Shown piece by piece: positions 3,288 through 50,248 of a stretch of DNA of 51,317 nt; within the stretch, counting starts at the first letter, position 1, and every line of letters starts with the position of its first letter. The stretch is from the IMG/VR virus record IMGVR_UViG_3300005617_000268, positions 1 through 51,317 of that record; one strand, written 5' to 3'. A program made the translations under genes and the position numbers. The notes under the pieces were generated by a model. It did not search any database, was not told where the DNA came from, and worked only from the letters and a program-made list of their open reading frames with translations. Source of the DNA: a virus.

Positions 3288-3484
3288 ACCGCTCGCCCCG
3301 CGTCCTCGGCAACCGCCTCACGCCCGAGCAGAAAGCCCGGCGCCTGACCCTCCTGCGCGAGCTGTGGACCCACGGCGAGCCCCGCGCGCAGATCGCGGTA
3401 CGCCTCGGATGCGCCGAGCAGACCGTGTCCTGGCTGGCCCGACAGGCGGGCTTGCCGCCCCGGCAGCGGAGGGCGGCGCGATGA
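3284..3484 (+). CDS. Small helix-turn-helix protein, 66 aa
   Basis: After a basic start the protein has LTPEQKARRLTLLRELW, then AQIAVRLGCAEQTVSWLARQAG. The second segment reads as a classic helix-turn-helix (Ala at turn entry, Gly in the turn, Val-Ser-Trp in the recognition helix), as in transposase-type HTH domains. The basic tail RQRRAAR would add DNA contacts. It overlaps both neighbours by four bases. A small DNA-binding regulator is the best guess. Confidence 0.6.
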   Translation: MNRSPRVLGNRLTPEQKARRLTLLRELWTHGEPRAQIAVRLGCAEQTVSWLARQAGLPPRQRRAAR

Positions 3485-4548
3485 CTCTCGACGTCATGGC
3501 CTACGCCACCATGGCGGCCGTGAGCCTCGCCCCGCTGATCTCGGTGCGCTATGTCGCCGGGCGCTACCTGGACGCCGCCCGCGACGTCTGGCTCGTCGGC
3601 CTCGCCTGGCTCGCCGCGCTGGCCCTCTGCGCGCACACGCTGCCACTCGGCCTCGCCGCGATTGCCGCGCTGGTCCACTGGCGCTCCTGGGAGCAGCTCC
3701 CCGCCGTGCTCACGTGGACCGGGCTCATCGCCACGTGGTTCCTCGTTCACGCGCTGCCCGACTGGGCCCTCGCCGCGCTCCCGGCCGGCTGGCGGATCAC
3801 GGTCGGCGGCATCATGCTGCTCGGCTTCGCGCTGGCGCAGAAGCGGCGCAAGCTCGAGATCAAGGCGGGCACGGGGACGCGCATCATGCTCGCCGCCCTC
3901 CTGGTCCTCGTCTGGCCCTTCACGGCGTGGTGGGAATGGCCGCTGTACGCCTACGGCCTCTGGCTGACGTCCTCGTGGGTCGCCCTCCTGGCCCTGCTTG
4001 TCGCCGTCGCCCTCCGCTACCCGGCCTCCACACCGTACGTCGCCGCCACGCTGGGCCTCGTGGTGACGCTCTTCGCCATCCCGTGGACCCGACGCATGGT
4101 GATCGACCAGACGCCGCGTGGCGGGTCCCTGGACGGCCTCCACGAGCGCTGGCGGACCTGGATGGCGATGCTGCGCCTCCTGCGGCGCTGGCCGATCTGG
4201 CTCACGGGCGCCGGGCCCGAGTCCGCCAGCCGCCGCCGACGCTGGCTGAAGCACGATCTCGCCCGCGAATCGGTGCGGCTGAGCGCGGAACAGGGGCACG
4301 ATGTCTCCATGACGGGCAGCCCGACGCATTGCGAGCCGCTGGAGTACGCCTATACCTACGGCGTGCTCGGGATGGCGGCCATGGTGGCGCTCGCGTGGCA
4401 TCTGGTGCCCCGGATGGCGTTGGGCGACCCGTGGACGGCGAGCGCATGGGCGGGGCTGGTGATTGCAGGGGCGGCGATCCCGGCAAGGGTGGCCCCGGTG
4501 GGCTTGGTCTGGTGGGTCGTGCTCGCGGTGATTGGAGGTCGGTCGTGA
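3481..4548 (+). CDS. O-antigen polymerase/ligase-like multi-pass membrane protein, 355 aa
   Basis: About ten hydrophobic segments span the protein, interrupted by one large polar loop (about 205-290). Around that loop are the marks of the Wzy/WaaL superfamily: RGGSLDGLHERWRTW before the loop, LTGAGPESA where the family has G-x-G-x, and CEPLEYAYTYGVLGMAAM where it usually has HNxxLxxxxExGxxG. Family members polymerise or ligate lipid-linked O-antigen or other surface glycan in the inner membrane. The canonical HN pair is replaced (THCEP), so activity is uncertain. It is followed by methyltransferase genes, which suggests a glycan-modifying cassette for lysogenic conversion. Confidence 0.6.
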   Translation: MTLDVMAYATMAAVSLAPLISVRYVAGRYLDAARDVWLVGLAWLAALALCAHTLPLGLAAIAALVHWRSWEQLPAVLTWTGLIATWFLVHALPDWALAALPAGWRITVGGIMLLGFALAQKRRKLEIKAGTGTRIMLAALLVLVWPFTAWWEWPLYAYGLWLTSSWVALLALLVAVALRYPASTPYVAATLGLVVTLFAIPWTRRMVIDQTPRGGSLDGLHERWRTWMAMLRLLRRWPIWLTGAGPESASRRRRWLKHDLARESVRLSAEQGHDVSMTGSPTHCEPLEYAYTYGVLGMAAMVALAWHLVPRMALGDPWTASAWAGLVIAGAAIPARVAPVGLVWWVVLAVIGGRS

Positions 4549-25500: not shown

Positions 25501-25767
25501 CCCGGCGCCGCCACCGGCCTCCCCTACGTGCCGCGCACGATGCCGCTCATGGTCCACGAGGGCGAGGGCATCCTCACGAAGGCCGAGAATCGCGCCTACC
25601 GGAGCGGCGGTGGCGGCATCAACCTGACCATCAACGTGACGGGCGGCAGTGACCCCGCCATGACGAAGGCGATGATCCTCGAGGCCGTGCCCGCGATCAA
25701 GCGCGCCGTAGTGAACGCGATCGCCAGCGGGCCCGAGGGTAAGCGGTTGCAGGAGAGCCGGCGATGA
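19579..25767 (+). CDS. Tape measure protein, 2062 aa
   Basis: By far the longest gene, placed right after the chaperones. The N-terminal 700 residues are mostly helical with coiled-coil character. A hydrophobic Gly-rich zone with several membrane-like helices (GSLIPVIGSVIGLGVGVYG and FAAFAGLLVGGGFAG) lies at about 930-1070. Long Ala/Gln-rich helices follow (about 1360-1960), and the end has LPYVPRTMPLMVHEGEGILTK, the usual tape-measure C-terminal region cut or bound at the tip. It sets tail length and is probably ejected into the host. The ATG follows the chaperone stop directly. Confidence 0.92.
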   Translation: MPSRVDIVLSAQGSAAVAKVFQDLADKGKLFADNVVNGGRRAEESLNSLGGTAKNVFEIFTGFTLANIGLQVADFARRSVNELTKLGFEAQRAEESFRRMTDLMGVNGEAMAENLKTASRGIVDLSDTMIASSKALAQGLNPEQITKLMEVAVAKATLAGTSVSEAFNSITTAVTNQQVKMLKSMGIVIDVTRVYNDYAAALGTVAGALTEEARSQALADEVIRKSASTQDALTKGVLTNAQEVEKAKASWKDLGETIGKVMADSDTAFIKGGARFIDWATSTKHWLDELGVSWNNYLAQSSLNFQTTGYGPGGTQNTRASIQMRTSPQELADLAAVDAGLGRIGKNAADAAPKILAVEHALAMADLAMKGFAAGQAQGTTTAAEFSAGIQTQIASLKALENQTPEVKAKIQDLQTQMVALNFSTAQQGLSASLQAATAHEAALLSLVKESVAQRNTTVEDGAVVEVQIHASALAEQRMDLAKFLAYAQLTETQRFQYTQQLRALDSQFEQAKSAERIAMWAREAAAVAQMLADRQEAAGLTNGPEASTRPLLDALDAWTKLGIAIDKVNQVARIDGDEQKRLADSIGLTRAALDDLSARFGDSSDDAEIMRLRLHGLLDEMTRLQTFRATAEDVAEAWSFVEQASSGATTALGDYSTALGLAEQESQLLGKSLGDELSVKIAVTEQAILKAAKAFGVESDAVKLLQERLAGFKVDQFVDDMSQIAATALLMGNRFDGAGAEISRFQKLLVDKLRETNNVITPEVADIASKLNGMIDANRLQQALGTARSVFDDLVDAGRGTASALNSGFSDLFFDLFTGQVKSLADVFASFGKSMLRVLADFLASAVVKQFLGFLGDLLGAFGDAGGGGWVNALSKAFGGTGAGGSGSGSLITAAFGGAAKILGSFGDSVSEVATTAVDALNGVAFGAETASKGLGSLIPVIGSVIGLGVGVYGLINSIQSGSASGIALSSVSTVLSGYGLASTLGLVPSIATMLGNALVAVAPQFAASLGAALGTTIGSGAAGTTAAVGVGAGLSAGLSAIAALAPFAAFAGLLVGGGFAGMAQDAEDGAIQTKENADKLRQAAGEVGVIVGLFQDIKSALSATNLPATLTKLGAAMRDLPNLQHAPSLGAEQITAMTTEWRAKVGALFLTALDAASKQGLDTSGILQSPFRVRVPNSNATAAVQPGQVSARGYASISELYGQGEGDWINALLDHVKQITDPLVRYLDTSNNVDTLDLDALNKFLDGEYLTTTLRNAVVDVGTMFGVSADQFAKAGLGRDVTAWNPDTQAFEPGQNWRMNPGDATGFEWSGIMPSVAAIAEVKQRLDAAGFEPGNYGKALEAFLLSVDANLVSNPAWKKFTDALAAGDASGDPDTITNAVNAAIIATMTPQKFYGAARALTDALTEQIKAQLTTRATTVDPDALKGIDAAIAALTDTIKAWSGLVQLFTTLPVEMAAIAGDLEGQTQAAIDAWQVTVASLTDSIADAQKAFDDAITGGNIIAIQQSAQALHDAAMARYQAELKMVQQITDAIQAILGQAETLVQMVTSIGQYDISASGSFGTIQALLDALQNTAEHASTTAARLWAVDQALKAIITTLPTAIAKFGPMQTAEQWLATGMQTAAQLQAGPNAISRKVVEGAAPFLAVQQTAIDAASGGTKLALLQQQAAAWNALATAAINGVNQWADQAIAGATAAAKVVTDGIDAQIVGIQEAAQVAADARAAEMEGLQEQIAKAREFAAAVKSMAQFIEQLRVGSLAPSNPMDQFIQAQATFNAALASFKAAPTAQGLGDLQGLAQSVLQAGGAVFTRPSPEYQRLFGSIVSELEDANALASAQASDSEVLQSQLDALQALDKTAAKAATDQIAALNAQKTAIAAALVTQTEAIRKAAADEIAGISEGLATALRDNAAEQAPLIADALAKQDALLAAVTRGAGSGLIDGVAFLAERAKDTVELLRGIYGALALAIPGAPALPGAATGLPYVPRTMPLMVHEGEGILTKAENRAYRSGGGGINLTINVTGGSDPAMTKAMILEAVPAIKRAVVNAIASGPEGKRLQESRR

Positions 25768-26576
25768 GCCTGCGCGTCTCCCTCGTCAATCACGCGGCGA
25801 CGGCCACGCTCACGGCGGTCTCCGCAGCGTCCGGATATCCGGTCGCGAACCTTGCGAGCCCGTCGACGCCCTTCAATCCGTACCGGAGCGGCGCCGCCGG
25901 AGCCGGTCAGATCATCACCATCGACCACGGCAGCGCGAAAGCGGTCGACGTCGTCGCGCTCATCCGCACGAACTTCGTCACGGCCACGTTCGATGCCGAC
26001 GACGCGGCCACGTTCAACAGCGCCGCCGGGAGCCCGCAGTACACGGCCGCGCTCACGTGCGCGGAGGCGCTCAATAGCCGCTACATGGGCTGGCACCGCC
26101 CGGCCACGACGGTGACGCGCCGCTACAACCGGATCACGATCGCCAATCAGACGCCCGTCGCCACGGTCCCGCATCTCGCGGGCGCAGCGTACTACCTCCT
26201 GGGTGGGCTTTGGCTCGGCCCGCTGGCCACTGTCCCGCGCGACATTCTGATGGACCCCGACCTCGAGCGCCAAGAGCCCGTCGCCGACGAGATGCTGCCG
26301 TCTGGTGGTAGGTCACGCAGCCTGATGGGCTACCCGTTCATCACGCTCACCGCCAAGCGCCTCGCCGAAGACGCTGCGGCCAGCACGCTCGACACGCAGC
26401 TCCGCGCCTGGCTCGCGCTCGACCGCGCGTGGGGCGAGGCGGACGTCGCGCTCGTGCTCCCGCGCGACCTCGTGCCCTCCGACGCCTACGTGATGCGGCG
26501 GCTCAAGGGCGCGGCGTGGACGTGGGGCCGTATCTGGTCCGAGGGCGACCTGACCCTGGAGGAGGTGGCCAACTAA
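25764..26576 (+). CDS. Minor tail protein with galactose-binding-like N-terminus, 270 aa
   Basis: The first 130 residues have the discoidin/F5-8C-like pattern of phage distal-tail proteins: ATLTAVSAASGYPVANLASPS, then YRSGAAGAGQIITIDHGSAKAVDVVALIRTN and ATFDADDAATF. A second domain (about 170-270) has LMGYPFITLTAKRLAED and ends DLTLEEVAN. It overlaps the tape measure by four bases. It probably forms part of the ring below the tube, perhaps touching host sugars. Confidence 0.6.
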   Translation: MSLRVSLVNHAATATLTAVSAASGYPVANLASPSTPFNPYRSGAAGAGQIITIDHGSAKAVDVVALIRTNFVTATFDADDAATFNSAAGSPQYTAALTCAEALNSRYMGWHRPATTVTRRYNRITIANQTPVATVPHLAGAAYYLLGGLWLGPLATVPRDILMDPDLERQEPVADEMLPSGGRSRSLMGYPFITLTAKRLAEDAAASTLDTQLRAWLALDRAWGEADVALVLPRDLVPSDAYVMRRLKGAAWTWGRIWSEGDLTLEEVAN

Positions 26577-27584: not shown

Positions 27585-27713
27585 ATGACGCTCGACTTCG
27601 GCCAGGACGACTTCTGGCAGGACGGTTTCACGCAAACCATCGAGCTGGGCGCGCCCGATATCCAGCAGCCCTACGTCCCGCTCTGGCTCGTGGAGGTAGC
27701 GACCGATGACTAG
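27585..27713 (+). CDS. Small acidic protein, 42 aa
   Basis: Starts three bases after the fibre gene and overlaps the sulfatase-like gene by eight bases. The sequence MTLDFGQDDFWQDGFTQTIEL is acidic and aromatic, with no charge-dense helix. It could be a linker or adaptor for neighbouring tip proteins. Support comes from its tight packing and GTAGCGACCG-type spacing only. Confidence 0.5.
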   Translation: MTLDFGQDDFWQDGFTQTIELGAPDIQQPYVPLWLVEVATDD

Positions 27714-28932
27714 GCCCACGGTGACGCTGATCTTCACGTCTGACGATCACGGCTTCCCCTACTACGGCTTCATGGAGCCCTACGCGAGCTTGGCGCCAGT
27801 GGGGCATCCCAAGGTGCTGACGCCGCGCCTGGATGCGCTCGCCGCTCGGGGCGCGCTGTTTCCGTACGCGACGAGCACAGCGCCGAAGTGTGAGCACGCG
27901 TTCCAGGGCGAACTGGTCGGCAAGGAAGCGCTCGATCAGATCAAGGGCGGGACGAACAACCTCGACCTGAGCCAGGAATGGACCTGGGCGCGCATCCTCC
28001 GCGACGTGGGCGGTTACAGCGACGTGATGCAGTGCGGGAAATACTGGGAGGGCGACGTGCTCGGCGGGGGCGGCTTCACGGATGAATACGACTCCGGCGC
28101 AACGGCGGATCACTTCGGCCGCGAGACGGTCCAGCCCGCGCTCGACTTCCTGACGGCTGCCGTGACGGCGGGACGTCCCTGCGCGCTCTCGGCCGCGCCG
28201 CGCATCCCGCATCTGCCCTTCCCGACGCCAACCTTCCCCGGCTATGCGACCTATCGCGCGCTGTACGACACCATGGACTGGTCGACCGAATGGCTCGCGG
28301 GTTGGCAGAGCACGACCTGGGCGCACAACTTCTACGGGATGGTCTCCTGGGTCGATGCGATCTATGGCGCGCTCGAGGATCACCTCCTCACGCTCGGCGT
28401 GCTCGACGATACGCTGATCCTCTTCTGGTCCGACAACGGCTTCGGCTTGAAGGAAAGCAAGGACACCGATACCCATAACGGCCGCGCCACTCCGATCATT
28501 GCCGCGTACCCGGCTGCGTTCGGCCCGTGCGTGAGCGAGCGCATCGTCTCGTGCATCGACTTCCTGCCGACCATCCTGGACTACGCCGAGGTGGTCTCCC
28601 CGACCGCGCCACTGATCGACGCGCTCTCCATGCGCGCGCTGTGCGAGTCCGGCGGCACGACCCCCTGGCGCCTGTGGAAGCCAGGCCAGTGGACCATCTC
28701 GGCCGGGCGCCACGCCTACGCCTCGGACTTCGTGCGCGCCGATAGCACGGTTACGCGCGGCATTCTCTACACCGACAACCACAACGTGGCCAAGCGGGTC
28801 TATGACCTCGGGAACGACACCGAGGAGGCGCATAACCTCATCGCGACGCCAGCGGGTCAGGCGTTCGCCGCGAAGTACACTCCGCTGCTCCGGGACTGGG
28901 AAGTCTCCCGCGTGCCGCCGGCGATCGGGTAG
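27706..28932 (+). CDS. Sulfatase-family (alkaline phosphatase superfamily) protein in the tail module, 408 aa
   Basis: The N-terminus VTLIFTSDDHGFPYYG is the sulfatase metal-binding strand (Asp13, Asp14). Further landmarks follow in family order: APKCEHAF (Cys62 at the nucleophile position), MQCGKYWEG (Lys112, the GKWHLG motif), HLPFPTP (His169), ILFWSDNGFG (Asp243-Asn244), CIDFLPTILDYA and VYDLGNDTEEAHNL. Sulfatases hydrolyse sulfate esters, often on glycans. The formylglycine signature C-x-P-x-R is not kept (C-E-H-A-F), so activation or activity is uncertain; a phosphoesterase-like role is possible. No signal peptide. Flanked by tail genes, it is probably a virion tip component. Confidence 0.8.
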   Translation: MTRPTVTLIFTSDDHGFPYYGFMEPYASLAPVGHPKVLTPRLDALAARGALFPYATSTAPKCEHAFQGELVGKEALDQIKGGTNNLDLSQEWTWARILRDVGGYSDVMQCGKYWEGDVLGGGGFTDEYDSGATADHFGRETVQPALDFLTAAVTAGRPCALSAAPRIPHLPFPTPTFPGYATYRALYDTMDWSTEWLAGWQSTTWAHNFYGMVSWVDAIYGALEDHLLTLGVLDDTLILFWSDNGFGLKESKDTDTHNGRATPIIAAYPAAFGPCVSERIVSCIDFLPTILDYAEVVSPTAPLIDALSMRALCESGGTTPWRLWKPGQWTISAGRHAYASDFVRADSTVTRGILYTDNHNVAKRVYDLGNDTEEAHNLIATPAGQAFAAKYTPLLRDWEVSRVPPAIG

Positions 28933-28935
28933 CGC

Positions 28936-29709
28936 GTGGCGATCTCTCCACCCACGGTCGAAGTCTCGCTCGGCGATACCGGCGCCCGGTCCTCGTTCAA
29001 CGTCGGCGCCATCGGGCAGACGAACGGCTCACTCAGCACCACGTGGACGCCGCCGGGGAACGCGCTGCTCCTCGTGGGCGTCAACCGCTCGCGCGCCACG
29101 GCGGGGAACACGCCGACCATCAGTGATAGCGTGGCGCAGGTCTCGTGGTCCGCCGCGCTAGATCAGACGCCGTTCGACACGATCGCGAGCCCGCTGCACT
29201 TCGCGACCTGGTTCTGGGGGATCACGCCGGCCTCGCCTGCGGCCATGTTCATCACCGTCGACTTCGCCGGGGACGTGCAGACCGGCTGCTCGATCATGGT
29301 CGCCTCCCAGACCGGGACGCATCTGACCACACCCATCGTCCAGAGCAAGGCGGCGGCGGCCAATAGCGCCGCCTCCGTCAGCGTCACCCTCGACTCGGCG
29401 CTCGGGTCCGGCAGCGTCACCGTGTCCTTCGGCTCGGCCAACGTGACGAGCGCCATCACGCCGCGCACGAACTGGACGGAGCCCGCCAACGGGGAGATCA
29501 CCTATACCGCGCCCGCGACGATCCTGGAGGTGCAGGGCTGGACGACGGGGGAGACCACGGCGAGCTTCACCGTCGCGGCCGGGTCCAACGTCGCCATCGT
29601 GAATATCGAGGTGCAGCCGCCGGCATCCTCACTCACTGCAGCGCAGATCAGCCCCGCCGTCACGGCTCTCGTGGCCAGCGGCGGCTTCATCGGGAGCGCG
29701 TATGTCTGA
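28936..29709 (+). CDS. Beta-rich structural protein of the tail tip, 257 aa
   Basis: GTG start three bases after the sulfatase-like gene. The sequence is all-beta: TWTPPGNALLLVGVNRS, HFATWFWGITPASPAAMFITVDFAG, CSIMVASQTG, SVTVSFGSANVTSAI. This is the pattern of a carbohydrate-binding or Ig-like jelly roll often seen in phage accessory tail proteins. No catalytic residues stand out. Being adjacent to the sulfatase-like gene, it may help bind the same surface glycan. Confidence 0.55.
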   Translation: MAISPPTVEVSLGDTGARSSFNVGAIGQTNGSLSTTWTPPGNALLLVGVNRSRATAGNTPTISDSVAQVSWSAALDQTPFDTIASPLHFATWFWGITPASPAAMFITVDFAGDVQTGCSIMVASQTGTHLTTPIVQSKAAAANSAASVSVTLDSALGSGSVTVSFGSANVTSAITPRTNWTEPANGEITYTAPATILEVQGWTTGETTASFTVAAGSNVAIVNIEVQPPASSLTAAQISPAVTALVASGGFIGSAYV

Positions 29710-29983: not shown

Positions 29984-30451
29984 ATGGCTAAGTTCTTCAT
30001 CGGCTATTCCGCCTTCGCCACGACCACCGGCAACAAGACGGCCGCCAAGGTCATCGGCGCATCCGCCGTGGGCTTTGAGGTCGTGGAGGTGGGCATGGAA
30101 GGCGCGGGGACGGTGGCGCCGGCCGACGTGCAGCATCAGTGCAACGTCGGGTTCCTGTCGAATGCGGGCGCCGGTACGGCGGGCGCCTCCCCGACCCCCG
30201 AGCGGATGGGGCAAAACGCCGGACGGGCGTCCGGGCTCACGGCCGGCACGGCGTTCTCGGCCGAGCCGACCACCTACGCCACCAACGTGTTCCCGCTCTT
30301 CGCCTTCAACCAGCGCGGCGGGATGCGCTGGGCGGTGCCACAGGGGGAAGGCTTCAAGTCTGACGGCGCCCAAACGAATCTCAGCTTCGGGGCGCGCGTC
30401 ATCTCGAGCGTGGCCGGCTCCGTGGACGGCAACATGATGTGGTGGGAATAG
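29984..30451 (+). CDS. Tail-module structural protein, 155 aa
   Basis: GGAGG lies eight bases upstream of the ATG. The protein is Gly/Ala/Thr-rich with no charged helices (KVIGASAVGFEVVEVGMEGAG, MGQNAGRASGLTAGTAF, RGGMRWAVPQGEGF), consistent with a beta-structured virion protein such as a decoration or fibre subunit. No enzymatic motif. It directly precedes the large hub gene. Confidence 0.5.
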   Translation: MAKFFIGYSAFATTTGNKTAAKVIGASAVGFEVVEVGMEGAGTVAPADVQHQCNVGFLSNAGAGTAGASPTPERMGQNAGRASGLTAGTAFSAEPTTYATNVFPLFAFNQRGGMRWAVPQGEGFKSDGAQTNLSFGARVISSVAGSVDGNMMWWE

Positions 30452-30475: not shown

Positions 30476-33400
30476 ATGCACTACGTCCGGAAGGTTGCGG
30501 TTGACCGGCCGGCCGGGGATTCCACTCCCGGCTGGCTGAGCCAGGCGCTTGCCTTCCGGACGGAGTTCTCGGGGGCCTTCTCTCAGATCCGCAGCTCGTT
30601 CGCCACGCTGTCCTCTCGGCGCTGGCACGAGCCGACGCCGCCGAGCTTCGCGTGGATCTTCACCGTCGTCGCGGCCGCCTCGGCGTTCACGGTGGCGTGG
30701 TCGCCCGCGATCACCGATCCGGCCCGGTCAGCGTACCGACCTCCGAGCAGCATCCGCTGGTATGAGCCGACACAGCCGAGTCAGGCGTGGCTCACCACGG
30801 CGATCCCGGCGCCGACCTTCCAGGCGGCCTGGACACCCGCCTTTGCTGAAGCCGCCCAGTCCTTCGTCACGCCCCCCGGGAAGCGCTGGTTTGAGCCCGC
30901 CCAGCCGGCCGGAGGAGACGCGTGGCGCACGGTGGCCGTCACCCCGGGCATCCGCACCTTCCTGGCCGCCCAGCCGCCGCGCCAGGCCTTCCGAACACCG
31001 CCAGGCAAGCTCTGGTTCACGCCCTCGCCCCACCTTCCAGGCTGGCTGGTCACGGGCACCCCGGCACCCCTCAGCCAGCCCGACCGGTACGCCACCTACA
31101 ACCTCGACGCCCTGCCCGACTTCTACGCCGGGCGCCTGCTGAATAGCAGCGACCTGAGCATCGTGCGCGAGCTCGCCGACCCGCTCTGGAACGCCACGCC
31201 TGACCAGACGGTGACGCTGGAGCTCGACAACACGGACGGTGCCCTGACCGCCTGGTATCTCGCCGACCCGACCGGCCGCTCGGTGGCGCTGAAGCGCTAC
31301 GACGCCCGCAGCGGCTTCCTCGCCACGAAGTTCCAGGGGCTCATCACGTGGGTCCGCCTGCTCGAGCATCGCGTGCAGGTCGACGTCGCCGTCCTCGATC
31401 GCGCGCTCTTTACCGAGCAGGTCCCCGCGCCCGTGGTCACGACGGCCACCTTCCCGAACGCGGTCGACGTGGGCAAGACGATCCCCGTGGTGCTCGGCCA
31501 CGAAGTCACGATGCCGTGCCCGAACGTGTCCGACGACAAGGTCAACAGCCTCTTCGACTACCTGGTCGGCCACGGGACGCTCGCGGTCACGGCTCTGGCG
31601 CGGAACAATACGGCGTCGGATTCGCTCTACTCCATCCAGTTCTCCGAGTGCCTCCGGTCGGATGGCCTGGCGGCGACCTCGTGGGCCGAAGTGGCGCGCA
31701 CCGACCTGTACCCCGGCTACACCGCGATCCGCTTCATCCTCCGCCAGCAGGACTTCAACAACGGCCTGCACACGATCTACGCCAACGTGACCGGACCCGC
31801 GGCCACGCGGAACTTCGCCCGCGCCATCGGGACGTTCCTCTCGGACACGACGTGGGGCCTGCGCCAGACGGTCAATCAGGCGAGCATCGATACCGCGGCG
31901 GCCGTGCTCGATGCCCTGCCAGTCCCACTTTATTGCGACGGCGCCATGCTTGCCCCGAAGGCCGCGCAGGATTGGCTCAGCGATTTGCTCCTGCCACGGG
32001 GCATGTGGCTCGACCGGAACAGCTCGGGCGAGCTGACGCTGCACGTCGATCAGCCGCGGACCACGGTGGCGATGGCGATCAGCGCGGACCCCGGCGATGG
32101 CCCCCGCAACCTCGTGGCCTTCCGCGAGCGGAGTGGCCCGGCGCCGGAGGAGCGCGTGCGGACGCTCTATCTCAAGTACCGGCTCGACCACGTGCGCGAC
32201 GAGTTCATCGGCCAGGCGGCACGGTCGGTGAACGCGGAGGGCAAGGCGCGCACGATCGAGCACGCGTTCCTGCGCGACGCCGGGAGCGCCGATCTCGTCG
32301 TCGACTACCTGGGCAAGCGCATTGCCGTGGGTCAGGAGACGGCCGAGGGCGTGGTGATCACTCAGGAAGGGCGCGCGCTCGGCATCGGCGACCTGGTCTA
32401 TCTGACCAAGGCGTCGGCGGGCTACACCGGGAACATCCTCGAGGTGTGGAAGATCGCCGAGTCGCTGACCTCGCTGGAGCTGACGCTGCGCGGCTGGTCC
32501 TACGCCACGTTCGCCTACACGCCGGGCACCCTGCCGGGGGATCCGATTGCCGGTACGGAATCGGATTTCAGCAGGACGGACCCGAGCGCGGCGACGGGGC
32601 TGTCCATCAGCAGCAGCGGGACGACGATCGACCCGCAGGGCAAGGTCTCAGCGTGGGTCATCCTCGCCCACACGAATCCCACGACCAACTTCGCGTTCTC
32701 GGACGTGCTCTACCGGCTGAACGGGGCGACGCAGTACAGCTTGGCGGCCAAGAGCATCACGGCGGGGGCGACGACGGCGCGGATCGAAGGCCTGCCGCCA
32801 GGCACGAGCGTCGACTACGCGATCCGAGTGAGTAACGCCTTCGCGCGGACCTCGGGGCTCGTCACCCTCACCGCGCAGACGACGCCGACCGATGCGACGG
32901 TGCCGAGCGCGATCACGGCGACCACCGTCACGCAATCCGGCGCGAAGGTGGCCGAGATCACGTTCACCTACACGCCCCCGGCCGACTGGGCATTTGTCCG
33001 ACTCTACCGCGCCACGTCGAATAGCTTCGCCGCCGCGACGGAGATCGCCAAGGGCAAACAACTCACGTTCCACGACGAGACAGTCAGCTACGCGGCGACC
33101 TACTATTACTGGGGGAAGGTCGAAGATCTCAGCGGCAACCTCTCGGGCGTGTCGCCGTCGTCGGGGCATTCGCTCACCATCGCGCAGATCGTCACCGCGG
33201 ACGTTGGCACTGGCCAGATCACGACGCCGACCATCGCGGCGAACGCAATCACGAACGCGCAATACGTTGTGGACGTGGCGGGCGGCGCCACACGCGATGC
33301 TACCCAGGCCATGGTGGACTTGGCCAACGGGTCGGTCTCCATCACCACGACGGGCGGCCCCGTCTTGGTGCTCTTCGCTGGGCACTGGGAGACGCTCAAT

Positions 33401-33679
33401 ACGTCGGTCAACGTGGTCTCGGCAGGCGTCTATCTGGAACTGCAACGCGACGGGAGCACGATTCAGTACGCCTACGACTTGCGCACCCATGCTCCCGACA
33501 CGGCCTTGAACCAAGGGAACATCGGTCGCATCACGTTGCCGATCACCGTGGTCGATCTTCCCAGTGCGGCCGCCCACACGTACAAGGTGCGATGGCGGAC
33601 GGTATCCGACGAAGGCACGACGGACCAGACGGCCACGACGACGGGACACTCCCTCGAATGCGTGGAGATGAAACGGTGA
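30476..33679 (+). CDS. Tail hub/central fibre protein with N-terminal W/P repeats and Fn3 domains, 1067 aa
   Basis: Residues about 40-190 hold four copies of a 42-45 residue repeat with RW-x-EP and a Trp-rich follow-up (RRWHEPTPPSFAW, IRWYEPTQPSQAW, KRWFEPAQP, KLWFTPSP). Residues about 205-690 look like a hub domain (VTLELDNTDGALTAWYL, FQGLITWVRLLEHRVQVDVAVLDRALF). Two fibronectin-III-like domains follow (about 700-805 and 805-910), and the last 150 residues form a C1q/TNF-like beta sandwich, a probable receptor-binding tip. The position at the end of the tail operon matches lambda gpJ. Confidence 0.7.
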   Translation: MHYVRKVAVDRPAGDSTPGWLSQALAFRTEFSGAFSQIRSSFATLSSRRWHEPTPPSFAWIFTVVAAASAFTVAWSPAITDPARSAYRPPSSIRWYEPTQPSQAWLTTAIPAPTFQAAWTPAFAEAAQSFVTPPGKRWFEPAQPAGGDAWRTVAVTPGIRTFLAAQPPRQAFRTPPGKLWFTPSPHLPGWLVTGTPAPLSQPDRYATYNLDALPDFYAGRLLNSSDLSIVRELADPLWNATPDQTVTLELDNTDGALTAWYLADPTGRSVALKRYDARSGFLATKFQGLITWVRLLEHRVQVDVAVLDRALFTEQVPAPVVTTATFPNAVDVGKTIPVVLGHEVTMPCPNVSDDKVNSLFDYLVGHGTLAVTALARNNTASDSLYSIQFSECLRSDGLAATSWAEVARTDLYPGYTAIRFILRQQDFNNGLHTIYANVTGPAATRNFARAIGTFLSDTTWGLRQTVNQASIDTAAAVLDALPVPLYCDGAMLAPKAAQDWLSDLLLPRGMWLDRNSSGELTLHVDQPRTTVAMAISADPGDGPRNLVAFRERSGPAPEERVRTLYLKYRLDHVRDEFIGQAARSVNAEGKARTIEHAFLRDAGSADLVVDYLGKRIAVGQETAEGVVITQEGRALGIGDLVYLTKASAGYTGNILEVWKIAESLTSLELTLRGWSYATFAYTPGTLPGDPIAGTESDFSRTDPSAATGLSISSSGTTIDPQGKVSAWVILAHTNPTTNFAFSDVLYRLNGATQYSLAAKSITAGATTARIEGLPPGTSVDYAIRVSNAFARTSGLVTLTAQTTPTDATVPSAITATTVTQSGAKVAEITFTYTPPADWAFVRLYRATSNSFAAATEIAKGKQLTFHDETVSYAATYYYWGKVEDLSGNLSGVSPSSGHSLTIAQIVTADVGTGQITTPTIAANAITNAQYVVDVAGGATRDATQAMVDLANGSVSITTTGGPVLVLFAGHWETLNTSVNVVSAGVYLELQRDGSTIQYAYDLRTHAPDTALNQGNIGRITLPITVVDLPSAAAHTYKVRWRTVSDEGTTDQTATTTGHSLECVEMKR

Positions 33680-37737: not shown

Positions 37738-37811
37738 TGGCGCAGGCGTCGCGAATCGAACGCGCCCCGGCGGCTTACGAAGCCGCTGCTCCGCCTTGGA
37801 GCTACACCTGC
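37738..37811 (-). tRNA. tRNA-Thr(CGU)
   Basis: A 74-base cloverleaf on the minus strand. Acceptor GCAGGTG pairs with CGCCTGC, then discriminator G and an encoded CCA. The D stem is GCTC/GAGC; the anticodon stem GCGGC/GCCGC encloses loop TTCGTAA with anticodon CGU; the T arm has TTCGATT and one mismatch at the stem base (49-65). It would read ACG, a frequent codon in this GC-rich genome. It runs against the surrounding genes. Confidence 0.8.
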
Positions 37812-37842
37812 GCACCGTGGAAAGGTGCTCGCTGGGGATTGC

Positions 37843-37914
37843 CGCGAACGGCGGGACTCGAACCCGCAGCCTCCCGAGAATGACCAGGGCTCTGACCAAT
37901 TGAGCTACGCAAGC
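37843..37914 (-). pseudogene. Degenerate tRNA-like element, possible CAU anticodon
   Basis: Minus-strand T arm (GCGGG-TTCGAGT-CCCGC) and D arm (GCTC-AATTGGTCA-GAGC) are perfect. The anticodon stem CCTGG/TCGGG pairs with two wobbles but has only a six-base loop (TCATTC), and base 26 is missing. The acceptor GCTTGCG/CGTTCGC has two mismatches and no CCA is encoded. Best read as a decayed Met/Ile-type tRNA or a tRNA mimic. Confidence 0.45.
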
Positions 37915-37946
37915 GCTCGGTCCCCAGCGGGCGAGGCCATCCTAGC

Positions 37947-44143: not shown

Positions 44144-44352
44144 GCACGACCGGCGGCTACTTCGACGCGAAGGTGACGGTCGAGATCGAGGCGACCGCGC
44201 TCCAGGATGCCGCATGGATGGCGCGCGTAGAGCGGTCCAATCGCAAGGGCGGCGCGCCACGACTGTCCTCGATCTCCGACCGCTCGCTTGAGGAGATCAT
44301 CGCGGTGTGCGAGCGCGCATTCCCAGTGCAAAGAAAGGACAGGGACACATGA
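44140..44352 (+). CDS. Hypothetical protein, 70 aa
   Basis: GTG start with four-base overlap. MSTTGGYFDAKVTVEIEATAL begins with beta strands; a helix (DRSLEEIIAVCERAFPV) follows. AAAGGA near the end provides the ribosome site of the next gene. No family recognised. Confidence 0.5.
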   Translation: MSTTGGYFDAKVTVEIEATALQDAAWMARVERSNRKGGAPRLSSISDRSLEEIIAVCERAFPVQRKDRDT

Positions 44353-45122
44353 GCCTCACGGCTGAGGAGATCGCAACGAAACTCACCCGCATTACCACCC
44401 TGTACGCCGGGTCGCACTCGCCCAACGGCCAACACTGCATCATGGAAGCCGTCGCCTTCGTGGCTGGCGAGCCGTGGAGCGATGCGCCGGCCTGCGTGTC
44501 CCCGGTCATCGCCGCCTTCATGCGGCGATGGAACGATGACCTGCCAGACGATGCGACGCGGACGCGCCTGCTCAAGCCGCTGATTCTCCCCCTTGTCGGC
44601 ACGAAGGGTGACGATGCTAGCGAGATCAGGCGCGCGTGGATGGCGACGGATTGGCTGGTGCGCTCGCTCGCGCCGACGTTCTTGCGGACCGTGCCGACGC
44701 TGGCTCAGCATGCGGACGCCCTGGAGGCCATTGGCGAGATCGTCGACGCTGTCTCTGCTTCTGGTGCTCAGCCGACTATCGCCGCCGCGGGGGCCGCCGC
44801 GGGGGCCGCCGCATGGGCCGCGGGGGCCGCCGCGTGGGCCGCCGCGGGGGCCGCCGCGAGGGCCGCCGCGGAGGACGCCGCGAGGGCCGCCGCGGAGGCC
44901 GCCGCGAGGGACGCCGCGAGGGCCGCCGCGGGGGCCGCCGCGAGGGCCGCGGAGGCCGCCGCGGGGGCCGCCGCGGGGGCCGCCGCGTGGGCCGCCGCGG
45001 AGGACGCCGCATGGGCCGCGGGGGCCGCCGCGTGGGCCGCATTGAAGGGGCCGACTACGAAGGCGCAGGCCTCAGCGGTCGCGCTCGTGCTCCGTATGTG
45101 CGCTGTGGGGAAGGCCCCATGA
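44349..45122 (+). CDS. Alanine-repeat protein, 257 aa
   Basis: The first 140 residues form a helical domain (LTAEEIATKLTRITTLYAGSHS, then EAVAFVAGEPWSD, a style met in phage proteins of unknown role). Residues about 145-232 are a run of four-residue units AAA-x, where x is Gly, Trp, Arg, Glu or Asp. It would form a long Ala helix with polar and Trp residues on one face. The last 25 residues return to normal composition. Repeat-bearing relatives occur in actinobacterial and soil phages. Function unknown. Confidence 0.65.
   Translation: MSLTAEEIATKLTRITTLYAGSHSPNGQHCIMEAVAFVAGEPWSDAPACVSPVIAAFMRRWNDDLPDDATRTRLLKPLILPLVGTKGDDASEIRRAWMATDWLVRSLAPTFLRTVPTLAQHADALEAIGEIVDAVSASGAQPTIAAAGAAAGAAAWAAGAAAWAAAGAAARAAAEDAARAAAEAAARDAARAAAGAAARAAEAAAGAAAGAAAWAAAEDAAWAAGAAAWAALKGPTTKAQASAVALVLRMCAVGKAP
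44781..45042 (+). repeat. Imperfect 12-bp tandem repeat array
   Basis: About 20 copies of GCCGCCGCG-x-GG, with the tenth base varying (g, a, t) and occasional shortened 9-bp copies. All lie in frame in the Ala-repeat gene, and the other frames are also open here. Copy number could vary by slippage. Confidence 0.85.
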
Positions 45123-47314: not shown

Positions 47315-48334
47315 ATGCCCCTCGCCGCGTCCACGATGCCCCCGCGCCAGGTCGCCCCGGAGCGGCCTACTCTGCGCGCCGGGGTGCGGCATATGCGTCT
47401 GAGCCGAGCGGTGGAGGAGTTTCTGCAGGAGCGCCAGCTTGAGGGGAGCCTGCTCACGTACAAGGCGTACAAGAGCGATCTCCAACTGCTGGTCTCGCTG
47501 GCCACGATCGAGCAGGGGGACAACGTGTCGTCCTTCACGCCCGAGGTGATTCGCCTGTTCTTCCGCAAGAAGGACGAGCGCGGCCTGGCGGCCGAGACGA
47601 AGCTGCGGGCGCGCTCGGCCCTGAGCGAGTTTGGCAAGTGGGCGCTGCGGCGGCGCCTGATCCTGGTGAACCCGATGGCCGAGGCCGCGCCCCGGATTCG
47701 CCGTCCCAAGCGGGCGCCGCGCCCCTTCACGCTCGAGGAGCGGGCGCGTCTGCTCGCGCTGGCGCTGTCACCCGAGGAGACCATGCTGCGGAGCCTGCTC
47801 TACTACGCGGGCGTGCGCGTGAGCGAGGTGACGGGGCTCCGGTGGCGCCACGTGCGGCTGTCAAACGCCGAGCAGCGGGGGGCGCTCCGGATCATCGGCA
47901 AGGGGGACAAGGAGCGGGTGGTCCCCATGCTGCGCGAGCTGGACGCGAGCCTCCGGGCATGGCTGGCGGCGCCGGGCGTCCAGCCGCGGATGCTCGTGGG
48001 CGGGCTCGTGCTGGAGCGCAAGGGGGCGCCGCTGCGCGTGCGCCGGATCGAGTACATGGTGGCCAAGTGGGGCGTGCGCGCCGAGGTGGCCGACTGCACA
48101 CCTCATAGATGGCGCCACAGCACGGCCACGCTGCTGTTCGAGCAGGGCGTGGACGTGCGGCTGGTGCAGCGCATCCTCGGGCACGAGTCGATCGCCACGA
48201 CCATGCAATACACCCAGGTCTCGGACGCAGCGATGGACCGCGCGATGGACAGCCTGGAGGCGAAGATGGCCCCCGGTGTCTTGCCAACATGTATTCTCCA
48301 CACGCCGCCAACTCCGGAGCAGGCCGAGTTATGA
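47315..48334 (+). CDS. Tyrosine-type site-specific integrase, 339 aa
   Basis: The catalytic residues are present in order: Arg168 (YYAGVRVSEVTGLRW), Lys196 (IIGKGDKERVVPM), His264-x-x-Arg267 (PHRWRHSTATLL), His290 (RILGHESIATTMQYT) and Tyr299. The N-terminal domain (about 25-125) has the SAM-like core-binding helices (SRAVEEFLQERQLEGSLLTYKAYKSDL). It cuts and rejoins phage and host attachment sites for lysogeny. XerC/D-like in length. The short upstream spacing (three bases) implies shared transcription with the early genes. Confidence 0.92.
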   Translation: MPLAASTMPPRQVAPERPTLRAGVRHMRLSRAVEEFLQERQLEGSLLTYKAYKSDLQLLVSLATIEQGDNVSSFTPEVIRLFFRKKDERGLAAETKLRARSALSEFGKWALRRRLILVNPMAEAAPRIRRPKRAPRPFTLEERARLLALALSPEETMLRSLLYYAGVRVSEVTGLRWRHVRLSNAEQRGALRIIGKGDKERVVPMLRELDASLRAWLAAPGVQPRMLVGGLVLERKGAPLRVRRIEYMVAKWGVRAEVADCTPHRWRHSTATLLFEQGVDVRLVQRILGHESIATTMQYTQVSDAAMDRAMDSLEAKMAPGVLPTCILHTPPTPEQAEL

Positions 48335-48487: not shown

Positions 48488-49045
48488 GTGAAGTACCGCA
48501 CCATCGTGGCCGACCCGCCATGGGACGTGGCGCGGCTTGAGAGCCCTGGTGCCAAAGGCTTTGGCACCAATGTCGCCCCGCTGAGATCGGTGACGTTGCC
48601 GTATCCCACGCTGAGCACCGAGGAGATCGCTGCGCTCCCGGTGCGCGACCTCGCGGATGAGATCGCCCACTTATACCTCTGGGCCGTCAACCGCTACGTC
48701 CAGGACACCTACCGAATCGCGCGAGCTTGGGGCTTCAGGCCCTCAACCCTCCTCGTGTGGGCGAAGTCGCCGATGGGGCTCGGGCCTGGCGGCGCATTCA
48801 GCATCACAACCGAGTACGTGCTCTTTGCGCGGCGCGGGGCCTGTCCAGCCAGCGAACGTGTCGACTCGACGTGGTGGCAGTGGAAGCGCGGGCGGCATAG
48901 CGAGAAACCGGGAGCGTTCCTTGACATGGTGGAGCGCGTCTCGCCCGGCCCCCGCCTGGAACTCTTCGCCCGCACGCAACGCCTCGGGTGGGACACGTGG
49001 GGCAACGAGGCGCTGTGTCATGTCGACCTGGAGACCCCGCGATGA
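48488..49045 (+). CDS. MT-A70 family adenine-N6 DNA methyltransferase, 185 aa
   Basis: DPPW at residues 9-12 (TIVADPPWDVARLES) is the MT-A70 catalytic motif. ALPVRDLADEIAHLYLWAV and AWGFRPSTLLVWAKS follow in the normal order, and RRGACPA/WQWKRGRHSEKP fits the C-terminal part. It likely methylates adenine in phage DNA to escape host restriction or mark replication. GTG start at 48488. Confidence 0.85.
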   Translation: MKYRTIVADPPWDVARLESPGAKGFGTNVAPLRSVTLPYPTLSTEEIAALPVRDLADEIAHLYLWAVNRYVQDTYRIARAWGFRPSTLLVWAKSPMGLGPGGAFSITTEYVLFARRGACPASERVDSTWWQWKRGRHSEKPGAFLDMVERVSPGPRLELFARTQRLGWDTWGNEALCHVDLETPR

Positions 49046-49461
49046 CCGCCAGCGCCCCGCAGCGCCGCGACGTGATCGAGGTGTTCGTCCCCGGCAAGCT
49101 CCAGCAGGTGGCCAACGGCTCGCTCTCGCGGGCGCACTGGAGCCGGAAGAGTGCGTGGTCGAATGCGTGGAAGGCGAAGACGCGGGGCGTGGTGCTCATG
49201 GCGTCGCCCCGCGGCCGAACCCCTGATCTCCTGTCCGGCCCGCTCGAGGCTCCGAAGCGCATCACGTTCACGGCCCACGTCGGCGCGCGCTGGGATGACG
49301 ATAATGTGCCCGGAGCCATCAAGCCGATTCGGGACGCATTGATCGGCCTCGTCATTCACTCGGATGCGCCTGACTCCGGCCACGAGTTCATCTATGCGCC
49401 CGCCATCATCGACCGCGCACATCGCGGCGTGCGCATCACGATCACTCCGGTGGCCCCATGA
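49042..49461 (+). CDS. RusA-like Holliday-junction resolvase, 139 aa
   Basis: ARWDDDNVPGAIKPIRDALIG (Asp85-87, Asn88, Lys94, Asp98) matches the RusA D-x-DN-x-x-K-x-x-x-D-x-L motif, followed by a further Asp (HSDAPD) near residue 108. RusA dimers cut four-way junctions formed in recombination or replication before packaging. The N-terminal part has a PGKLQQVANGSLSRAHWSRK opening with a basic patch. The ATG overlaps the methyltransferase stop. Family size fits. Confidence 0.8.
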   Translation: MTASAPQRRDVIEVFVPGKLQQVANGSLSRAHWSRKSAWSNAWKAKTRGVVLMASPRGRTPDLLSGPLEAPKRITFTAHVGARWDDDNVPGAIKPIRDALIGLVIHSDAPDSGHEFIYAPAIIDRAHRGVRITITPVAP

Positions 49462-49498
49462 CCGCCCTCGGCGTCGGGCGCCGGCTGGAGGCGCGGTG

Positions 49499-50248
49499 AT
49501 GCTCGTGCTGAGCCTCTTCCCCGGCATCGGACTGCTGGACATGGCCTTTGAGCAGGAGGGGTTCTGCGTCGTGCGCGGGCCGGATCTGCTCTGGGGCGGG
49601 GACATTCGCGCGTTCCATCCGCCCGCCGGCAAGTTCGACGGCGTGATCGGCGGGCCGCCGTGCCAGGCGTTCTCGCGGCTGCGCTACCTCGTGGAGTACA
49701 ACGGGCACGCGATCGCCGAGAACATGATCCCCGAGTTTGAGCGCGTCGTGGCTGAGGCCGAGCCCGGGTGGTTCCTCATGGAGAATGTCCCGCAGGCGCC
49801 CGAGCCCTGCGTGCCCGGCTTCACGGTGAAGTCCGTCATGGTCAATAACCGCTGGTTCCAAGGCGAGCAGCACCGGACGCGACGCTTCTGCTTCGGCACG
49901 TCAACCGGGACGCCGCTCCATCCGCAACTGGCCGCGCTCGAGGCCGTCGAGTGGTTCCCGGCGGTGCTCGCGCACGGCGGCCAGCGACTCGTCCCTGTGG
50001 CCGTGGGCGGCTCCGGGAAGATCAAGGCGACGAAGGCCGCCGCGATTGGCTATCAGTCCACGGCCTACTTCGAGCTCGCCGTGAAGCTCCAAGGATTGCC
50101 CGCCGACTTTGACCTACCAGGCTTCACGGTCAGCGGCAAGATTCGCGCGCTCGGCAACGGCGTCCCGCTCCCCATGGGCCGCGCCATCGCGAAGGCGGTG
50201 CGGAAGGCCCTCGCCCAGGACCGGCTGGAGGCGCGGCGTGGGACGTGA
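49499..50248 (+). CDS. C5-cytosine DNA methyltransferase, 249 aa
   Basis: SLFPGIGLLDMAFEQEGF is motif I, PPCQAFS (Cys55) the catalytic loop, MENVPQAP motif VI, and LGNGVPLPMG motif X. It is short for the family (usual 300-400 residues), with a small target-recognition segment between motifs VIII and X, so specificity may be simple. It would protect phage DNA from restriction. The 37 bases before it can encode only 13 residues. Confidence 0.85.
   Translation: MLVLSLFPGIGLLDMAFEQEGFCVVRGPDLLWGGDIRAFHPPAGKFDGVIGGPPCQAFSRLRYLVEYNGHAIAENMIPEFERVVAEAEPGWFLMENVPQAPEPCVPGFTVKSVMVNNRWFQGEQHRTRRFCFGTSTGTPLHPQLAALEAVEWFPAVLAHGGQRLVPVAVGGSGKIKATKAAAIGYQSTAYFELAVKLQGLPADFDLPGFTVSGKIRALGNGVPLPMGRAIAKAVRKALAQDRLEARRGT

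Follow-up and report, generated by a model that had tools for sequence, protein, structure and literature searches.

A sulfatase-fold protein encoded in the tail module of a temperate phage and of two other metagenomic phages

Introduction

What would a sulfatase-like protein do for a temperate phage that encodes it among the genes of its tail tip? The question is raised by IMG/VR record IMGVR_UViG_3300005617_000268, which is taken here in its entirety, as a stretch of 51,317 bases (the window). A preliminary description of this DNA had recognised most of a sulfatase site in the product of one gene, and had supposed that the protein is probably carried in the virion and, if active, may strip sulfate, or another ester, from a host surface glycan before infection. 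Glycosidases, lyases and acyl esterases make up the phage depolymerases known to us. Bacterial genomes abound in sulfatases, and phages are known to place cargo genes near their tail genes. In the open-access literature, to which the survey of phage, viral and virion sulfatases was confined, no tail sulfatase was found, and no paper searched joins a sulfatase with a tail fiber and a depolymerase. The phage proteins named 'FGE-sulfatase' in one paper were considered and set aside, as they are DGR target domains and not sulfatases. Sulfatases are known and so are phage depolymerases; what appears to be new, as judged from the open-access literature, is a putative sulfatase in a tail module.

Genomic context in the window and in two other phages

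The open reading frame of the preliminary description was recovered exactly, as was its location among tail-tip genes (Table 1). It forms part of a run of co-oriented genes between the tape measure gene (TMP) and the J-like tip gene, with the fibre-like gene on its upstream side and the beta-rich protein on its downstream side. The 8-nt overlap with the preceding short ORF suggests that the two are translationally coupled. The phage had been taken to be temperate, and the presence of a tyrosine integrase gene bears this out. Genes for MT-A70-type (48488-49045) and C5-cytosine (49364-50248) DNA methyltransferases lie near the integrase gene. Elsewhere, the window encodes an Ala-rich protein (44307-45122) with a tandem repeat of 12-nt period (22 overlapping register copies), as well as a tRNA-Thr (cgt) along with an unusual tRNA-like gene on the minus strand (37738-37915).

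Table 1. Features of the sulfatase locus and the integrase gene in the window
Feature	Coordinates	Strand	Basis or remark
Tail tape measure protein (TMP), 2062 aa	19579-25767	+	phrog_3779, E 1.3e-8
Tail-tip protein after TMP	25764-26576	+	L009 counterpart at the equivalent position (29% identity, E 6e-9)
Fibre-like protein, 280 aa	26740-27582	+	Composition and position only (by eye); no family match
42-aa ORF	27585-27713	+	3' end overlaps the sulfatase start
Sulfatase-like protein, 408 aa	27706-28932	+	ORF translation, PF00884, AlphaFold2 model
Beta-rich protein	28936-29709	+	Begins 4 nt past the sulfatase stop; 44% identity to a stretch located elsewhere in G001
155-aa protein, widely exchanged cassette	29984-30451	+	63% identical counterpart in L009
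Tail tip protein, 1067 aa, J-like (central tip)	30476-33679	+	Position; 27% identity to the tip-like protein of L009 (6962-9499)
Tyrosine integrase	47315-48334	+	PF00589, E 1.2e-28

Two other metagenomic phages carry a relative of the sulfatase-like protein, at 69% (G001) and 31% (L009) identity. In L009, the genes upstream of the sulfatase gene include one for a tape-measure-like protein and one for a tip protein, and the counterpart of the 155-aa neighbour follows about 950 nt downstream. In G001, the gene is closely followed by one for tail assembly (phrog_9600, E 6e-32), and then come a gene for 1209 aa and one for a cell-wall hydrolase. A comparison of gene order in related phages had been named as a check in the preliminary description; the protein is encoded in the tail module in the window, G001 and L009, as expected of a phage tail enzyme. 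The three phages differ in most of their other genes. At the DNA level, the window matches L002, a 17-kb stretch of G001, in the sulfatase gene alone (72% over 1228 nt), and at the protein level only two local matches besides the sulfatase were obtained with the pieces of G001 examined. This pattern apparently fits the exchange of a single tail gene between different phages. Comparison of the window and L002 genes gives a dN/dS of 0.24, indicative of purifying selection.

Only these three members were found, all on metagenomic contigs; no close relative was found in named phages, and exact-peptide searches with each member alone returned no further ones. The sulfatase matches inspected in named phages look cellular or unverified (gut 'Bacteriophage sp.' scaffolds and an Acinetobacter contig with fepA). 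Together with the abundance of sulfatases in bacteria, these matches would be in line with a chance-acquired host chromosomal gene or a metagenome assembly error, an explanation that we regard as highly improbable and, given the conserved tail-module context, largely refuted. The gene occurs in the tail modules of three different phage contigs, it is under purifying selection, and its GC and GC3 (0.667 and 0.878) are like those of the neighbouring phage genes (about 0.68 and 0.90). Host contamination was rejected on the strength of the three phage contexts, and the homologues are not all chromosomal strays, as two of them stand in tail modules of phage contigs. The tail modules, the purifying selection and the invariance of the site residues described below speak for a phage tail-module gene and against a host stray.

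The 155-aa neighbour has a wider distribution. Phages that otherwise differ carry it at 25 loci, where a short W-C-x-x-C protein often precedes it, and a search of named phages did not recover it. Genes near these loci encode right-handed beta-helix, polysaccharide-lyase-like, lectin-like and glycosyltransferase proteins, and also capsid and adaptor proteins, a composition that suggests no more than a region open to exchange in which genes related to glycans are frequent. The 155-aa protein was rejected as a marker of sulfatase-carrying phages, since L009's is the only contig among those of the 25 loci that carries a sulfatase. That the slot beside the 155-aa gene is in every case occupied by a glycan enzyme is no more than a suggestion, in view of the varied genes nearby, capsid and adaptor included. 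A membrane protein of the window (3364-4548) is related (29%, E 4e-6) to a gene that precedes the 155-aa gene in L032; it is possibly O-antigen-ligase-like and has no Pfam match of its own. Beta-rich proteins of about 230 aa with a similar C-terminal ending (..A..SGG.IG..YV) are encoded in the window (28936-29709), L009 (11188-11859), L013 (4034-4753) and L037 (4859-5554); the window and L009 proteins match over their last 42 residues only (E 0.02).

Other viral sulfatases

Viral contigs were scanned for the canonical motif C-x-P-S-R-A-x-L-L-T-G, which matched 20 stretches, roughly half of them real sulfatases as judged by other motifs. A viral contig (L054, 807-4010) encodes a 1067-aa protein in which a canonical sulfatase (CSPTRAALLTG, GKWHLAF, SDNG) follows an N-terminal domain with 31% identity (E 2e-22) to a separate, adjacent 192-aa protein, and the fusion gene adjoins the gene for a 1216-aa fibre-like protein. 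It is a virion-type fusion by inference only, because no functionally characterised family was matched by its N-terminal domain. Another canonical sulfatase, with a signal-like N-terminus (L052, 9160-10623), lies between a tail-fibre gene and a tail/virion-like gene, after the Dit and tape-measure genes. The sulfatases of L051/L066, L063/L067, L068 and L071 are not among recognisable tail genes; the tail location of viral sulfatases is thus recurrent and not universal. In a 150-kb viral contig (L048, 1128-8584), a sulfatase was seen by eye within a cluster of glycan genes that also includes two sulfotransferase-like genes and a glycosyltransferase-like gene.

These arrangements bear on whether the window gene could be an auxiliary or moron gene, expressed from a tail operon and acting inside the cell or during lysogeny, where it would free sulfate from small molecules or modify a host glycan. 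Such a metabolic role would agree with the lack of an anchoring domain in the window protein, with the occurrence of phage cargo genes near tail genes, and with sulfatases placed inside glycan clusters beside sulfotransferase-like genes in some large viral contigs such as L048. It is nonetheless unlikely, as the window gene is tightly packed between tail genes on both sides (an overlap at its start and a 4-nt gap after its stop), the three phages share a like location, and other sulfatases are found in a tail context.

Fold and family

The window protein matches the Pfam Sulfatase family (PF00884) with E 6.5e-17 and 62 bits (cut-off 25), and in a direct comparison with solved structures it matches sulfatases, the match being stronger when a profile built from the three phage proteins is used (5G2V, E 1e-24). 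An AlphaFold2 model calculated from 16 sequences of viral and bacterial loci, canonical sulfatases included, reached a pLDDT of 77.3 and a pTM of 0.86, and the three phage sequences alone gave a poor model (pLDDT 31). The best Foldseek match of the former in the PDB is the S1 sulfatase 7STT (E 1.3e-20, TM 0.73), and among the 50 PDB matches listed all are sulfatases or close kin. This fold match is partly inherited from the canonical sulfatases present in the alignment; the PF00884 match does not depend on that alignment. Against the predicted viral structures of BFVD, only giant-virus sulfatases and phosphoesterases were recovered at E <= 0.001, and no tailed-phage protein with a matching fold was found at that threshold. 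The protein is thus, by its profile matches and its predicted structure, of the sulfatase fold of the alkaline phosphatase superfamily. Structure prediction and comparison with sulfatases, named as a check in the preliminary description, therefore support its reading, and the metal and sulfate site residues are intact. No tail-anchoring domain of its own was found in the window protein.

The alkaline phosphatase superfamily is promiscuous. This promiscuity, a weak NCBIfam match of the window protein to the PehA phosphoric/sulfuric ester hydrolase, and the loss of the formylglycine motif described below would all be compatible with a hydrolase of another ester, a phosphodiester or phosphonate, directed at a teichoic-acid- or LPS-like polymer. 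We consider this very unlikely. Phosphonate monoester hydrolases (PMHs) have a D-H metal pair, unlike the D-N pair of classical sulfatases (PMC12421950); the pair of the window protein, D243-N244, is of the classical sulfatase type, and carbohydrate sulfatases predominate among the top matches by profile and by fold.

Active site and maturation motif

Alignment with canonical sulfatases confirmed every site residue listed in the preliminary description, namely D13, D14, C62, K112 (in GKYWEG), H169, D243 and N244, and added K252, the counterpart in the alignment of the C-terminal lysine conserved in sulfatases. The site for Ca and sulfate, made up of two Asp near the N-terminus, an Asp-Asn pair, a His and two Lys, is accordingly complete in the window protein. 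All eight residues are invariant across the three phage proteins, in which 113 of the 408 positions (27.7%) are invariant, a coincidence with a hypergeometric P of 3e-5 if positions are independent. The N-terminus shows no visible signal peptide, as had been described, and begins directly at strand beta-1 (residues 6-12 of the AlphaFold2 model).

The maturation motif C/S-x-P/A-x-R, on the other hand, is absent: the window protein reads CEHAF at C62 and its relatives CMDAL (L002/G001) and CEQSI (L009). The Pro two residues after the Cys is replaced by H64 in the window protein and by D and Q in the relatives, and the His of the GKxH motif is also replaced (GKYWEG). The recognition motif of FGE is CXPXR (PMC4505483). 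Since both the Pro and the Arg are missing, formylglycine maturation through the known motif is unlikely, which leaves catalysis by a bare Cys or binding of sulfated glycans as options, and the window protein is not called a strict member of the S1 formylglycine sulfatases. At the same time, the intact site and the low dN/dS argue against a plain decay of the motif.

The loss of the motif is not wholly a phage event. The closest bacterial proteins first found, from Alteromonas sp. 76-1 and Catenovulum adriaticum plasmids (27% identity), read C-R-P-S-L and GKWWEG. In a profile search of 297 Bacteroidota genomes at a threshold of E <= 1e-60, 11 proteins in 10 genomes were retrieved, all of them with C-[RS]-P-[SA]-L and GKWW. 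The other site residues are kept in this bacterial group (L085-L095, L073, L074), of which we know no characterised member. In a tree that carries a long-branch warning, the three phage proteins form one clade (100/98) that joins the bacterial C-x-P-[SA]-L/GKWW group (joint branch 100/99, nested branch 96/93). The simplest reading of these sequences is that the Arg was lost before, and the Pro after, the phage lineage split off. The change to CEHAF pointed out in the preliminary description is therefore real, and of its two losses that of the Arg is common to the bacterial kin. The closest of these adjoin GH88/GH78 polysaccharide genes, and the bacterial N-termini inspected (L073, L074, L085) look lipoprotein-like by eye; those of the phage proteins begin with the first strand. 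That these bacterial relatives look exported and the window protein does not is a further point against the metabolic role considered above.

It has been reported in SulfAtlas that among 4,058 sequences Ile or Leu takes the place of the motif Arg in only nine bacterial ones, from Lentisphaerae and Planctomycetes, and its authors suggested that such sulfatases may be inactive (PMC5066984). The phage protein might then be a catalytically dead derivative that keeps its pocket, lacks formylglycine and serves as a tail adhesin for sulfated glycans, a real if minor possibility. The loss of the P64 and R66 equivalents and of the GKxH His, the perhaps inactive Leu/Ile forms of SulfAtlas, and the lectin-like and beta-helix proteins encoded nearby in other contigs would all suit an adhesin. 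The invariance of Cys62, K112, H169 and K252 fits catalysis more than binding alone, and the same residues are also kept in the bacterial C-x-P-x-L relatives.

Proposed role

The reading that we favour, to which we give about an even chance, is that of a tail-associated enzyme that acts, with some catalysis, on a sulfated (anionic) polysaccharide of the host surface. It would be produced together with the tail and most likely be incorporated into it or attached to its surface, because it is encoded with tail proteins and has no export signal. Canonical sulfatases in a tail context (L052, L054), the polysaccharide genes beside the closest bacterial kin and the glycan-related genes near the 155-aa loci are further points in favour of such a role. 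The Ca-type site (D13, D14, D243, N244) would hold sulfate esters, Cys62 would be the nucleophile that removes the sulfate, and K112, H169 and K252 would act as acid/base and sulfate-holding residues, the sulfated glycan being attacked before or during adsorption. We infer the virion location, the substrate and the activity from the sequence and its context, and the interpretation given in the preliminary description is, overall, partly supported. Because the motif lacks its Pro and Arg, Cys62 is probably not turned into formylglycine; either turnover would then be slow, or the protein may partly serve to bind sulfated glycans. In agreement with the former, a choline sulfatase with an unmodified Cys shows slow turnover (PMC6189696).

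A more specific proposal, that tailed phages possess a distinct lineage of tail-borne, formylglycine-free sulfatases in which a bare Cys strips sulfate from host glycans at adsorption, is tentative and rather unlikely to hold in full. If it were true, these proteins would constitute both a new class of depolymerase-like phage enzyme and a natural formylglycine-free sulfatase. The loss of the motif in the phages, and in part in their bacterial sister group, with the site intact, makes natural formylglycine-free catalysis by a sulfatase fold directly testable. More generally, these sequences suggest that some phages may trim sulfate from the surface sugars of their hosts. A sulfatase in the tail module would extend the means by which phages pass or recognise anionic coats to the removal of sulfate, and would suggest that sulfated glycans on bacterial surfaces serve as phage receptors.

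Comparison with known systems

Among the closest known counterparts are the S1 (formylglycine) carbohydrate sulfatases, such as 7STT from Pedobacter, the GlcNAc-6-sulfatase BT4656 (5G2V) and the S1_19 carrageenan sulfatases. The window protein shares with them the alpha/beta/alpha fold, the D-D and D-N ligands, the Cys at the catalytic position, the GK lysine, the PH histidine and the C-terminal Lys. It differs from them in lacking C/S-x-P/A-x-R and a visible signal peptide, in its identity of about 20%, in its length (408 aa against 440-530) and in being encoded in a phage tail operon. The bacterial C-x-P-[SA]-L/GKWW group is its closest kin, with Leu for Arg, GKWWE and a DDHGYP-like start in common, and differs by the lipoprotein-like N-termini of the members inspected and by the retained Pro. 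The giant-virus sulfatases (Satyrvirus, Tetraselmis virus 1) match in fold (BFVD, E <= 0.001), but belong to eukaryotic viruses, are 11-14% identical and have no tail context. With the depolymerase tailspikes and the tail-borne esterases and lyases of phages, the window protein has in common that it is encoded in the tail module, and the role on polysaccharide proposed for it is of their kind; it is distinguished from the tailspikes by a predicted sulfatase fold and chemistry, and by being the product of a separate gene with no trimeric beta-helix.
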